Source of the DNA: Streptomonospora alba
GTDB lineage: Bacteria > Actinomycetota > Actinomycetes > Streptosporangiales > Streptosporangiaceae
Length of the DNA: 64,000 nt
NCBI RefSeq assembly: GCF_000826685.1
Contig: NZ_JROO01000014.1
Coordinates: forward strand, 1 to 64,000
Reading direction: 5' to 3'
Part shown: piece by piece, positions 3,275 through 14,302 of the stretch
Position numbering within the stretch: position 1 is the first letter of the stretch
Layout: each line of letters starts with the position of its first letter
Made by a program: the position numbers and the translations under genes
Notes under the pieces: model-generated
Databases searched by the model: none
Told to the model about the DNA's origin: nothing
What the model saw: the letters and a program-made list of their open reading frames with translations, nothing else

Positions 3275-3300
3275 GCTACCGATCGGCAGCGGCCCGAAAC
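3275..3300 (-). promoter_or_regulatory. SigB-type promoter element of the hydrolase gene
   Basis: On the minus strand it reads GTTT-N16-GGTAGC, followed by GGCC, 35 bp before the ATG. It matches eight other sites in this window and resembles the known SigB/SigF consensus of actinobacteria (GNNT-N14-16-GGGTA). Confidence 0.7.
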
Positions 3301-3352
3301 ACGCGGTGCCGCGCACCGGCGCTCTCAGCTCGGCGCGCGGCTACTGCGGGCC

Positions 3353-3748
3353 CTAGGCCCCGGGCCCTTCCTCCGGGCTCGTGGGATCGGGGCGCAGCGG
3401 ATCGTGCCCCAGCGTCATCAGCTCGTGGCGCCAGCGCTCGTCGTGCTTGTCGACGGGCTCGGCCAGCAGCCGGCCGGCCCGCTGTACGACCTGGCGCATC
3501 GTGTCGACGTCGTCGCCGGTGAGATCGACCTGCCGCTTGTCCAGGATCTCAACGATGCGCCGCCCGATCGGGGAGACGTCCATGGACGGATCGGCGGAGA
3601 AGCGGTCGGGCCCCGAAGCGTCGGTAAGCAGCCACCGGCGCAGCTCCTCACTGCTCATGTTCACCGTGCCGTGGAACTCCTGCCACAGTTCCGCCGTCTC
3701 GGGATCGAGGTGTTCACGGGCCACGTCGACCTCCTCGGATCGCGTCAT
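3353..3748 (-). CDS. DUF3140 family protein
   Basis: A 131-residue soluble protein. Its core (LWQEFHGTVNMSSEELRRWL, then a segment on SPIGRRIVEILDKRQVDLT, then WRHELMTLGHDPLRP) is the DUF3140 pattern as I recall it. No enzymatic motif is visible and the molecular function is unknown. Family members usually sit among small stress-associated genes, as here. The internal ATG at 3748 is chosen because it lies 34 bp downstream of a GTTT-N17-GGTAGC element. The longer open frame upstream of it runs through the neighbouring divergent gene and is not real. Confidence 0.8.
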   Translation of the reverse strand: MTRSEEVDVAREHLDPETAELWQEFHGTVNMSSEELRRWLLTDASGPDRFSADPSMDVSPIGRRIVEILDKRQVDLTGDDVDTMRQVVQRAGRLLAEPVDKHDERWRHELMTLGHDPLRPDPTSPEEGPGA

Positions 3749-3781
3749 CGACCGCGCGCGGGGCGCGCGTATCGATGGCCC

Positions 3782-3808
3782 GCTACCTGGAGGGGCCGTG
3801 CCCCAAAC
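3782..3808 (-). promoter_or_regulatory. SigB-type promoter element of the DUF3140 gene
   Basis: Minus strand GTTT-N17-GGTAGCGGG, 34 bp before the ATG. The spacer is one base longer than in the other sites and contains a small inverted repeat. Confidence 0.6.
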
Positions 3809-10531: not shown

Positions 10532-10601
10532 GGAGTTTCCCGACCGATTCCCACCGGGGCGCCCGCAGGCTGGGCGTCCCGTTCCATGAGGAGGTCCATC
10601 G

Positions 10602-13175
10602 ATGACACACGACTTTCCTCCGGGAGGCGGAGGCGGCTACGATCCGCGCTCCTTCGAGGAGTTCCTCGCGCGTTTCTTCGGTCCCGGGGGCCAGCGCCGC
10701 GCCTCGCACCGCGTCGACCTGTCGAAGCTGATGGACACGCCGTCCCGGGAGGTCGTGTCCGAGGCGATCGCCCGTGCGTCCCAAAGCGACGGGACCGACC
10801 TGGACGCCGCGCACCTGCTGTGGGCGGTTCTGCGCTACGAGCCGGCCCGTGAGCTGGTCCAGCGCGCCGGCGCCGACCCCGACGCCCTGGCCAAGGGCGC
10901 CGAGAGCGAGGCCCAGCGGGCTCCCCAGGCCGGACCGGGCATCCCGGCGCTGACGCCGGCGGCCAAGCGGACGCTGCTGGACGCCCACCAGATCGCCCGG
11001 GCGATGGGCCGGCCCTTCATCGCGCCCGAGCACATGCTCTTCGCGCTTGCCGTCAACGGCGAGTCGCGTATGGGCCGGATGCTGGGCGAGGCCGGTGTCA
11101 CCCCCGATTCGCTGCAGGCCGCGGCGAGTTCGGGCCCCACGTCCGCCGCCGCGAGCGGGCAGGGCGCCACCTCCGCCCAACAGCAGCAGGAGAGCACGAC
11201 ACCCAACCTCGACGAGTTCGGCACCGACGTCACCGCCCTGGCCTCCGAAGGCCGCCTGGACCCGGTGATGGGCCGCGAGTCGGAGGTCGAGCAGACCATC
11301 GAGGTGCTGGCACGCCGCCGCAAGAACAACCCCGTGCTCCTCGGCGACCCCGGCGTGGGCAAGACCGCCATCGTCGAGGGCATCGCCCAGCGCATCTCCG
11401 ACAACGACGTCCCCGACACCCTCAGCGGGCGCAGGCTCGTCCAGCTCGACCTGGCCGGCGTGGTGGCGGGCACCCGCTACCGCGGCGACTTCGAGGAGCG
11501 GGTCCGCAACATCGTGGAGGAGATCCGCAACGACGACAAGCTGCTGATCTTCATCGACGAGCTGCACACCGTCGTCGGCGCGGGCGGCGCGGAGGGCGCC
11601 ATGAGCGCGGGCAACATGCTCAAGCCCGCGCTGGCCCGCGGCGAGCTGCACATGATCGGCGCCACCACGCTGGACGAATACCGGCAGAACATCGAGAAGG
11701 ACGCGGCACTGGAGCGCCGCTTCCAGCCGGTGCTGGTCTCCGAGCCCAGCGTCGAGGACACCGTGGAGATCCTGCGCGGCCTGCGCGACCGCTACGAGGC
11801 CCACCACCAGGTCCGCTTCAGCGACCACGGACTGGTGGCCGCGGCCCAGCTCTCCGACCGCTACGTCTCCGACCGGTTCCTGCCCGACAAGGCGATCGAC
11901 CTCGTCGACCAGGCGGGCGCCCGGGTGCGGCTGCGCCACAAGCGGCCCAGCGTCGACGTCCAGGAGCTGGAGGAGCGGCTGCGCGAGCTCGACGCGCGCA
12001 AGGAGCAGGCCGTCCGCGAGGAGGACTACGAAGCCGCCTCCCAGGCCCGCGACGAGATCAACCGGACGCGCGAGTCCATCGCCCAGGCCCGCGACACCGG
12101 CCCCGAGCAGGTGCCCGTGGTCACCGTAGAGGACGTCGCCGAGGTGGTCTCGCGCATCACCTCGATCCCGGTCTCCCAGCTCACTCAGGAGGAGCGCGAG
12201 CGGCTGACCGGGCTGGAGGAGCGCCTGCACGCCCGCGTCGTCGGCCAGGACGAGGCCGTCACCGCGGTCGCCGAGGCGGTGCGGCGCTCACGCGCCGGGC
12301 TGGCCTCGCCCGACCGGCCGATCGGCAGCTTCCTGTTCCTGGGGCCCACCGGCGTGGGCAAGACCGAGCTGGCGCGGGGGCTGGCCGAGGCGCTGTTCGG
12401 GTCGCAGGAGCAGATGATCCGGTTCGACATGAGCGAGTTCCAGGAGCGCCACACCTCCGCCCGCCTGGTGGGGGCGCCTCCGGGCTACGTCGGCTACGAG
12501 GAGGCCGGCCAGCTCACCGAGGCCGTGCGGCGCGCGCCCTACTCGGTCATCCTCCTCGACGAGATCGAGAAGGCCCACCCCGACATCTTCAACCTGCTGC
12601 TGCAGATGCTCGACGACGGCCGGCTGACCGACGGCCAGGGCCGCACGGTCGACTTCCGCAACACCGTGGTCATCATGACCAGCAACCTGGGATCGGAGTT
12701 CATCACGGGCGGCGGTCCCATCGGGTTCGTCGGCGCCGAGGAGGCCGAGCGCGACCGCGCCACCCGTGAGCGGATCATGGCGCGGCTGCGGGACGAGTTC
12801 CGGCCCGAGTTCCTCAACCGCGTCGACGAGATCATCGTGTTCTCCCAACTCACCGACGAACAGCTGGCGAAGATCACCCGGCTGCTGCTGGAGGAGACGT
12901 CGCGTCGGCTCCACGCCCAGGACATCGGCATCGAATTCGGCGACGACGCCGTCCACTGGCTGGCCTCCACCGGTCACCAGCCCGAGTTCGGCGCCCGTCC
13001 GCTGGCGCGCACCATCCAGCGCAGCGTCGGCAACCCGCTCTCGTCCAAGCTCCTGAGCGGAGCGCTCGCCCCGGGCGACCACATCACCGTGGGGGTCGGA
13101 GACGAGGGCCTGGCCTTCAGCATCGACACCAGCTCCCGCAGGGAGGCGTCGAGCACGGAGTCCGGTACGGGCTGA
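10602..13175 (+). CDS. ClpC/ClpB-like AAA+ ATPase (Hsp100)
   Basis: An 857-residue Hsp100 unfoldase with two AAA+ modules. The order is a Gly-rich leader (about 1-35), Clp_N repeat domain (about 40-180), a Gln/Ser/Ala linker, D1 (Walker [10 protein letters not shown], Walker B LLIFIDE), a short UVR-like middle segment ([20 protein letters not shown]), and D2 (Walker [10 protein letters not shown], Walker [12 protein letters not shown]). The short UVR-type middle domain, rather than the long ClpB coiled coil, puts it nearer to ClpC. ClpC-type proteins feed ClpP; a diagnostic ClpP-binding loop could not be confirmed. The N-terminus ([26 protein letters not shown]) differs from the housekeeping ClpC1, so this is likely an accessory, stress-linked paralogue. 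Confidence 0.9.
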
Positions 13176-14276
13176 GTGCCCGGCAGGTTCGGGGCGTTCG
13201 GCAAGGGCACGATGCCCGGTCGGGCTGACGGCGTCCGTTACGGGGGCGACGGCGCCGGTGGGTCCGAACGGGTGCACCTCCTCGGATCGCCGGGGTGAGC
13301 GGTGGCCTGTCCGCACGGAAGCGGGCGGGCCACCGCTGTCATGCGCCGGGGCTGATGGGAGGGGACTGCCTGTGGGTTTCGCGCGGTGGTCGGTGCGGTG
13401 GGGCCAAGGCGCGCGCCCGACGACGGCGGCGGACGGTTCGGACCGGCGTCGGCCGGTGCGGTCTGCGTCGGTTGCGCGTCCGACGCCGGGGGTGACGACA
13501 GCGGACGGCCGGCGGCGTATTCGCCGCCCCGAGCTGGGAACGACCGCGGTCCTGCAACCGACCTCGGTGGCACTGCGTCCGGTGACGGGGGGAGGCCTCG
13601 GGTAATCCGCAGCTCAGGCGGCCGGTGGGGCGGCGGGAGTGCGTCCGTACATGCGGTATGCCGATGCGGGCGGCGCAGGAGCCCGCCCGGCGGATTATTT
13701 CGCCCGGTTGTGTCTGGATTCTTGGCGTGTCCCGAGGTTCCGAACGGGCTCCGGTGGCGTCGCCCGCAGGCGCTTCGCTTCCCTCGGTGCCTCGTCGGGT
13801 GCGCAGCCATCCACCCGCCGCAGCCGGTGTATGCCGACTCCGGCCGTCCGCCGCCGGCGCCGCCTCGGTTCGAGCCGCGACGCTGCGCCTACCGCTCCGA
13901 CCGAAGCCGCCTCCGCCCCGCGGCCGGCGCTGCCGCCCTCGTCGGGTGCTCGACGCCGTGCCGACGGCATCGACGCTCGCGGCCCGGCCCGGGTGCTGCG
14001 ACGGTATGTGATGATCGGATTCCGCCGTGCGGCGGATGACGCGCTTGCCCGGGGGCGCGCGCGGCCGCCCGATTCCTCGGCGCCTGCGTTGAACGAGACT
14101 GCCGGCGTCACCTCGGCCCACCCGCTCGGCGCCGCGTCCGGCGGCCCGCATCCGCACGGCCGCCGGTTTGTCCCCGCCTCGAATTCGCAGCTCAACGCCG
14201 CGGTGGCGCTGGACCGCACTGCTACCGGTCCATATTACTGAGAGTGACTATGGTGCCCATGAATACACGGACGGTT
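13176..14276. other. Gene-poor stretch between clp and the heptose cluster
   Basis: About 1.1 kb containing the Clp terminator (13299-13336) but no gene I can support. Every open frame, on both strands, is Arg/Pro/Ala-rich low-complexity translation typical of non-coding GC-rich DNA. Base composition is slightly more mixed than in the genes. It may be decayed DNA or an insertion scar. Confidence 0.5.
13299..13336 (+). terminator. Terminator downstream of the Clp ATPase gene
   Basis: 16-bp stem (GCGGTGGCCTGTCCGC pairing with GCGGGCGGGCCACCGC, two wobbles) and a 6-nt loop, 124 bp after the stop codon. Confidence 0.65.
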
Positions 14277-14302
14277 GTTTCAGGTCGGCTGCGATTGGTA
14301 GT
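14277..14302 (+). promoter_or_regulatory. SigB-type promoter element of the heptose-glycan cluster
   Basis: GTTT-N16-GGTAGTCG, 75 bp upstream of the carbamoyltransferase start. It matches the stress-gene promoters at 2.5-10 kb in spacing and hexamer. Confidence 0.6.

Follow-up and report, generated by a model that had tools for sequence, protein, structure and literature searches.

The first 64 kb of contig C18 (NZ_JROO01000014.1) of the 5.9-Mb genome of Streptomonospora alba, here referred to as the window, contain a repeated element, GTTT-N16-GGTAGC, in front of nine transcription units between positions 3275 and 14302. Nine intergenic copies and a tenth one identified in this study very probably are promoters of the SigB/SigF group, which would co-express an island of stress genes, a heptose-glycan cluster, and a candidate small RNA; the sigma factor encoded at 25134-25973 is their likeliest reader (Table 1). 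The sites are clustered, are conserved in relatives with near-fixed spacing, and lie near the gene of this sigma factor. From these features we infer that they serve as transcription starts.

With one change at most, eight copies with the 16-base spacer occur in the window, whereas 100 dinucleotide shuffles averaged 0.82 and never gave more than three; the ninth copy has a spacer of 17. All nine sites of the initial annotation were recovered, and all are aimed at the next gene. The distance from the -10 end to the start codon, originally given as 10-125 bp, measures 9-124 bases (34, 33, 55, 9, 124, 63, 36, 89, and 74 in coordinate order). The list omitted the tenth site, which is of equal quality. 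Six of the nine sites form three divergent pairs (3782/3854, 6824/6949, and 9938/10048). The probability that the element is merely a dispersed repeat, or that base composition produced it by chance, is negligible: its one-mismatch form is indeed common throughout the genome, but the count in the window exceeds that of every shuffle, and conservation follows gene and position. One further copy with a 17-base spacer (33011-33036, plus strand) overlaps the ends of the reading frames 32158-33093 and 33021-33872 and was taken as chance. At the family-9 glycosyltransferase gene gt9 (6211-6248, minus strand), the -10 element ends just nine bases before the ATG, both here and in one relative (G004). 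Because of this short gap, the gt9 message may be nearly leaderless or use a later start codon.

Table 1. Predicted promoters and associated features of the window. Fractions give the loci with a site among the stretches of relatives chosen through the CBS protein.
Feature	Position	Strand	Remarks
Predicted promoter, dienelactone-hydrolase-type gene 2575-3240	3275..3300	-	exact match; 4/4
Predicted promoter, DUF3140 gene 3353-3748	3782..3808	-	spacer 17; 3/3
Predicted promoter, Cys-rich gene (csp) 3935-4357 and chaB 4414-4827	3854..3879	+	exact match; 5/5
Candidate small RNA, two hairpins	4988..5090	-	ends estimated; covariation; model R2 finds the G002 copy
Predicted tenth promoter, upstream of the candidate small RNA	5096..5122	-	spacer 17; conserved in position in six other genomes, lacking in three
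Predicted promoter, gt9 5110-6213	6223..6248	-	exact match; 5/6
Predicted promoter, CBS-domain gene 6280-6699	6824..6849	-	one change, GGTAGT; 11/14
Predicted promoter, DUF3040 gene 7038-7265 and ctaD 7333-9009	6949..6974	+	one change, GTTA form; 1/2
Predicted promoter, PNPOx-type gene 9509-9901	9938..9963	-	one change, GTTAGC form; 3/4
Predicted promoter, gene 10163-10531 and Clp-type ATPase gene 10602-13175	10048..10073	+	exact match; 4/5
Predicted promoter, NodU-like carbamoyltransferase gene 14377-16035, head of the putative heptose-glycan cluster	14277..14302	+	one change; 3/3
SigB/SigF/SigG-family sigma factor, likeliest reader	25134..25973	-	TIGR02980, 277.8 bits vs cut-off 234.35 (scanned as 25134-26153)

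Conservation was assessed in relatives, using 13 stretches drawn from the leading entries of the CBS protein homology list; a site was scored if it lay no more than 250 bases upstream of a gene and deviated from the pattern at one position at most. Leading genes of transcription units carried a site in 39 of 46 cases, as opposed to one of 19 internal or control genes (chaB, ctaD, clp, the sigma factor gene, GT2-HAD, and GH18). These stretches were picked after the CBS sites were already visible, and G028, which lacks the site, was passed over. The count without CBS, 28 of 32 leading genes, is fairer because the CBS sites were known before the stretches were chosen. Leading genes without a site were CBS in L189, L190, and L191, gt9 in L191, ldp in L180, duf3040 in L177, and pnpox in L174. 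The sole internal match belongs to the chaB gene of L180, which is separated from csp there, and a chaB gene without csp in L202 has a perfect site. Variants recur as well: the GTTA form of the DUF3040 site is found also in L174 and L194, and the PNPOx site reads GATAGC in G004 and G005. In stretches chosen by the motif itself (L192-L202), which were counted separately, 18 of 25 leading and two of 12 internal genes carry a site. L064 lies on the same contig of G004 as L177 and was left out of the stretch counts. Among the wider CBS homologues, the site is present with at most one change in 13 of 27 loci (window included), the misses being mostly the less similar homologues. Genomes within one genus are not independent of each other in any of these comparisons; the closest named relative, Streptomonospora sp. 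PA3, has a carbamoyltransferase 90% identical to that of the window.

A search for GTTT-N12..21-GGTA in 92 upstream regions gave 62 matches, 51 of which have a 16-base and seven a 17-base spacer with G following GGTA, and four others. This set includes the window, motif-chosen loci, and chaB, and it is less biased than a set of 61 sites picked by best score. The spacer thus is nearly fixed in length (58 of 62), as had been proposed; the accompanying statement that its letters vary needs qualification for the carbamoyltransferase promoter, whose spacer is partly conserved in other genera. GGTA is preceded by C in 31 of the matches, by A in 13, by T in 10, and by G in eight, and the consensus in mycobacterial SigF notation is GTTT-N15-nGGTAGY with a free first -10 base. 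The layout of SigB/SigF-type promoters, with a GTTT -35, a GGTA-type -10, near-fixed spacing, and orientation towards the gene, is found in full. The classical -10 with G at its first three bases (GGGTA) is not, and the promoters are classed as a variant because G precedes GGTA in just eight of 62 matches. The reading as promoters of the SigB/SigF type, whose consensus the initial annotation had pointed out, is strongly supported by the location of the sites, their nearly constant spacing with free spacer letters, and their conservation among relatives.

On the genome scale, where the reversed pattern served as the control, the exact pattern occurs seven times in 5.9 Mb (control, one), with four of the seven in the window. 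The form GTTTN{16,17}GGTAGY, which was written after the sites of the relatives were known, yields 20 matches versus five in this genome, eight of the 20 between 3275 and 14302, and 100 versus 25 over six Streptomonospora genomes. The total of the exact pattern over 61 genomes of the family shows no enrichment (245 versus 274). The one-mismatch form is not enriched over the control in this genome and is useless as a scan. Twelve strict matches lie outside the island. Conserved ones precede a molybdopterin oxidoreductase, formate-dehydrogenase-like by reading of its family, with a counterpart in G005; a phosphoribosyltransferase-domain protein with a counterpart in G004; and a lytic polysaccharide monooxygenase (LPMO_10) gene in L187, where the same promoter (C78:77096-77121, minus strand) lies 67 bases upstream and has counterparts in G004 and G005. 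Another site lies in front of a 69-residue protein that has no match in Pfam, and in G004 single sites were found before GvpO and an aldehyde dehydrogenase. Upstream of an RsbW-like gene (HATPase_c_2) at C18:144298, 263 bases separate the likely gene start from the end of the site C18:143921-143947 (L245 from 1422); this site, which is matched by one in G005, possibly represents a feedback arm of the regulon. For the remaining seven of the 12 matches (C13, C32, C36, C46:42089, C61, C89, and C100), no convincing gene was found, and they probably are chance occurrences.

The promoter of the glycan cluster extends far beyond the genus. In 80 loci found through homology of the carbamoyltransferase alone (L064 included), a perfect GTTT-N14..17-GGTA was present within 200 bases upstream in 50, whereas 0.27 are expected from shuffles, which here and for the upstream regions of the relatives preserved base composition and nothing more. 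The loci cover Nocardiopsis, Microbispora, Nonomuraea, Lentzea, Saccharothrix, Nocardia, Streptomyces, and other genera. If GGTA is followed by G, the spacer is 16 in 31 of 34 cases and 17 in three; if it is followed by A, the spacer is 15 in 11 of 13. This joint shift of spacing and -10 type can be seen, for example, in L069, L074, L076, L103, and L104, and because the two change together, different sigma paralogues possibly are used. Among 17 Streptomyces loci, nine have GTTT-N16-GGCAC(C/T) and three have GTTT-N15-GGTAAC. The spacer of the carbamoyltransferase promoter is not only partly conserved across many genera but often palindromic as well, and a second regulator may therefore bind between the -35 and -10 elements. 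This feature might also suggest that the repeated element as a whole is an operator for a DNA-binding regulator rather than a promoter. Such a function is quite improbable, however, as the other sites combine free spacer letters with a nearly fixed length, orientation towards the gene, and the boxes of a known sigma factor class. With promoters as the preferred interpretation, a widespread glycan cluster would be placed under stress-sigma-type control in many genera. The literature search found no paper joining ADP-heptose, a Streptomyces glycosyltransferase cluster, and a sigma factor.

The 3' end of gt9 holds the tenth site, which is aimed at the gap between gt9 and the 3' end of chaB. The site is present in seven of the ten genomes examined that have convergent gt9 and chaB (the window genome and G001, G002, G003, G004, G015, and G076), the last -10 base departing from Y in G002 and G076. 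No such site was found between the convergent genes of G062, G063, and G065, and neither gene was seen in the G005 stretch. Behind the site follow two hairpins, the arms of which vary between genomes while their complementarity is kept. In hairpin 1, with arms chosen by hand, 7.7 of 8 positions pair with the own partner and 4.8 of 8 with the partners of other genomes. Across six genomes, in an alignment fitted to the structure model, 11 pairs changed on both sides versus 4.5 in shuffles (0 of 500 shuffles); for the four genomes of the genus alone the signal is weaker (5 versus 2.5; 24 of 500). The letters of RNA model R2 exclude G002 and were aligned with model R1, which included it. In G002 the expected copy is the only match of R2 (E = 8.7e-7), and over 19 genomes R2 matches G002, G015, and G076 only, the latter two being part of the model. 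Model R1, applied with strict filters that also missed G015, found matches at E <= 0.5 in 12 of 100 genomes of the family; the island genes and the promoter are in place in G000 and G003 only, and the ten others have neither. Rfam 15 gave no match at the gathering score in window positions 1-30000, and its two matches in 4800-5150 (E 5.9 and 7.9) are far under gathering. Three-frame translations of the region revealed no conserved reading frame. Single-sequence folding is only moderately better than that of shuffles (z -1.5 to -3.3), and the window copy has more broken pairs than those of the genus relatives.

Taken together, the hairpins most likely belong to a candidate small RNA of the same regulon. 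They might instead be a mere two-way terminator between gt9 and chaB. This main rival has a substantial, if smaller, chance of being correct, given that the hairpins sit between convergent genes, that hairpin 2 of G002 and G004 scores on the opposite strand too, and that G062, G063, and G065 have the same gene arrangement without the site. Two separate covarying hairpins with conserved letters between them, and a promoter-like site that is directed into them and has been kept in seven genomes, speak against a mere terminator. As to the candidate RNA itself, the 5' arm of hairpin 2 carries UCCUYC within the genus, a motif that could face Shine-Dalgarno sequences.

Which sigma factor reads the promoters is suggested by gene content and genome context. 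The sigma factor of the window contains regions 2, 3, and 4, and the SigBFG cut-off is passed by two genes of the genome, C18:25149-25820 in the window and C78:36465-37136. The window type, defined by at least 67% identity with the cut-off set at a gap in the list, is found in 10 of 61 genomes of the family and forms a clade that includes neither the C78 type nor the nine homologues of S. violaceorubidus. Its gene and clp are 0.7 kb apart in G005, the distance to duf3140 in G062 is approximately 5 kb, and a relative with 57% identity is encoded about 3 kb from ldp in G013. The exact motif has a density of 1.44 per Mb in these ten genomes, as opposed to 0.48 per Mb in the 51 that lack the window type (p = 2.7e-5; control, 0.64 and 0.67). 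The sigma factor encoded at 25134-25973 hence probably is the main reader of the promoters.

Several observations weigh against this assignment or the regulon in general. The density test is not independent because the ten sigma-carrying genomes are related, and G007, G018, and G022 have many sites without encoding the window type. No site with at most one change was found in the 1.2-1.5 kb upstream of the sigma factor gene in any of 11 loci, so that no signature of autoregulation was seen, and none of 44 HATPase_c_2 matches falls in the window, which thus lacks an RsbW-like gene as part of a partner-switching operon. Lentzea and Nonomuraea, which are outside the clade of the window sigma factor, have the same site before the carbamoyltransferase, and a second SigBFG sigma factor (C78) exists in the same genome. 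Furthermore, the one-mismatch pattern is not enriched genome-wide (111 versus 209 in the control), and chaB without csp upstream has no site of its own in L191 and L198, two of four such stretches. The C78 SigB/F-type sigma factor might thus be the main reader, alone or jointly with that of the window, which would then serve another regulon. Close relatives of the C78 type in PA3, Marinactinospora, Nocardiopsis, Nonomuraea, and S. violaceorubidus, the presence of the site in genera without the window type, and the sharing of promoters by SigB homologues in S. coelicolor, as described in the available part of PMC8346170, would be in line with this option. It nevertheless appears less likely considering that the gene of the window type lies near the island and that motif density is higher where this type is encoded.

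Gene families behind the sites were assigned by Pfam and NCBIfam. The Cys-rich protein, followed by ChaB, is weakly similar to the Csp1 copper-storage family (23 bits, cut-off 100), the CBS protein has two CBS domains, and the product of gene 10163-10531 has a weak Rv1109c-like stretch (28 bits, cut-off 110). The best model for the Clp-type ATPase is ClpB, with a score under its cut-off. The NodU-like protein, likewise under the cut-off, is encoded by the first gene of a cluster that continues with glycosyltransferases, a PfkB kinase with a cytidylyltransferase, and dehydrogenase and epimerase/dehydratase genes. Calling these the carbamoyltransferase and the heptose-glycan cluster follows the initial annotation and our own reading of the families, not labels from the profile search.

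In the proposed mechanism, stress would free the sigma factor from an RsbW-type anti-sigma factor, and the SigB/SigF-group holoenzyme would read a -35 GTTT, 15 bases, and the -10 nGGTAGY. The general-stress island would thereby be switched on together with the heptose-glycan cluster and the candidate RNA. It comprises the dienelactone-hydrolase-type enzyme, DUF3140, the Cys-rich protein with ChaB, the family-9 glycosyltransferase, the CBS protein, DUF3040 with CtaD, the PNPOx protein, and the small protein with the Clp-type ATPase. The shared and conserved site supports the earlier proposal of one regulon that joins stress genes, DUF3040-ctaD, the Clp ATPase unit, and the glycan cluster. In M. 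smegmatis, the SigF regulon is induced on loss of the aa3 oxidase, according to the available part of PMC7693655, and by analogy the presence of ctaD here would fit a role in respiratory stress. A broader proposal has two parts. A stress sigma factor specific to Streptomonospora and relatives would read nGGTAGY and control a clustered regulon plus a two-hairpin RNA that runs towards the 3' end of csp-chaB, and SigB/F-type control of the glycan cluster would span many genera, with -10 type and spacer covarying (GGTAG with N16, GGTAA with N15). The case for this combined proposal is evenly balanced. The regulon island as such provides a sigma-promoter code that can be put to the test in a group of actinobacteria, as well as a specific small-RNA candidate whose promoter and fold are defined.

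The class and spacing of these promoters are already known, and the -10 element nGGTAGY is a variant. The literature search found no paper joining GGTAGC with sigma factor promoters and none that spells the motif with GGTAG; judged by title or the start of the abstract, no study of this sigma-promoter code in Nocardiopsis or Streptomonospora was found. The following comparisons refer to the available parts of the cited papers. In M. smegmatis, the commonest spelled form of SigF promoters is GTTT-N15-GGGTA with 28 occurrences (N16, 19; N17, 4), one gene has GTTT-N15-CGGTA, and many of the listed genes MSMEG_1766-1804 are SigF-dependent, including those for ChaB (1802), an RsbW protein (1787), and sigF itself (1804; PMC4694148). 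The GTTT-N15 layout thus is shared, as is the link to ChaB, which in M. smegmatis belongs to a SigF-dependent gene run around sigF. In contrast, the first -10 base is free in the sites described here and GY follows TA, the island holds GT9, Cys-rich, CBS, ctaD, and clp genes, and no site was found before the sigma factor gene. Among the SigB homologues of S. coelicolor, the GTTT -35 is best kept for SigF, SigH, and SigN, the -10 is GG-rich with its first three bases almost invariantly G and two other positions variable, and spacers of 12-15 follow the -35 hexamer (PMC8346170). The sites of the window share the GTTT -35 and a GG-rich -10, and their spacing of 13 after the hexamer is inside this range, but their first -10 base is not invariantly G. 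Similarly, the GTTT -35 and the spacing agree with the B. subtilis SigB consensus GTTTAA-N12-14-GGG[A/T]A[A/T] (quoted in PMC8346170), from which the promoters described here differ in not following the full GTTTAA and GGG[A/T]A[A/T] boxes.

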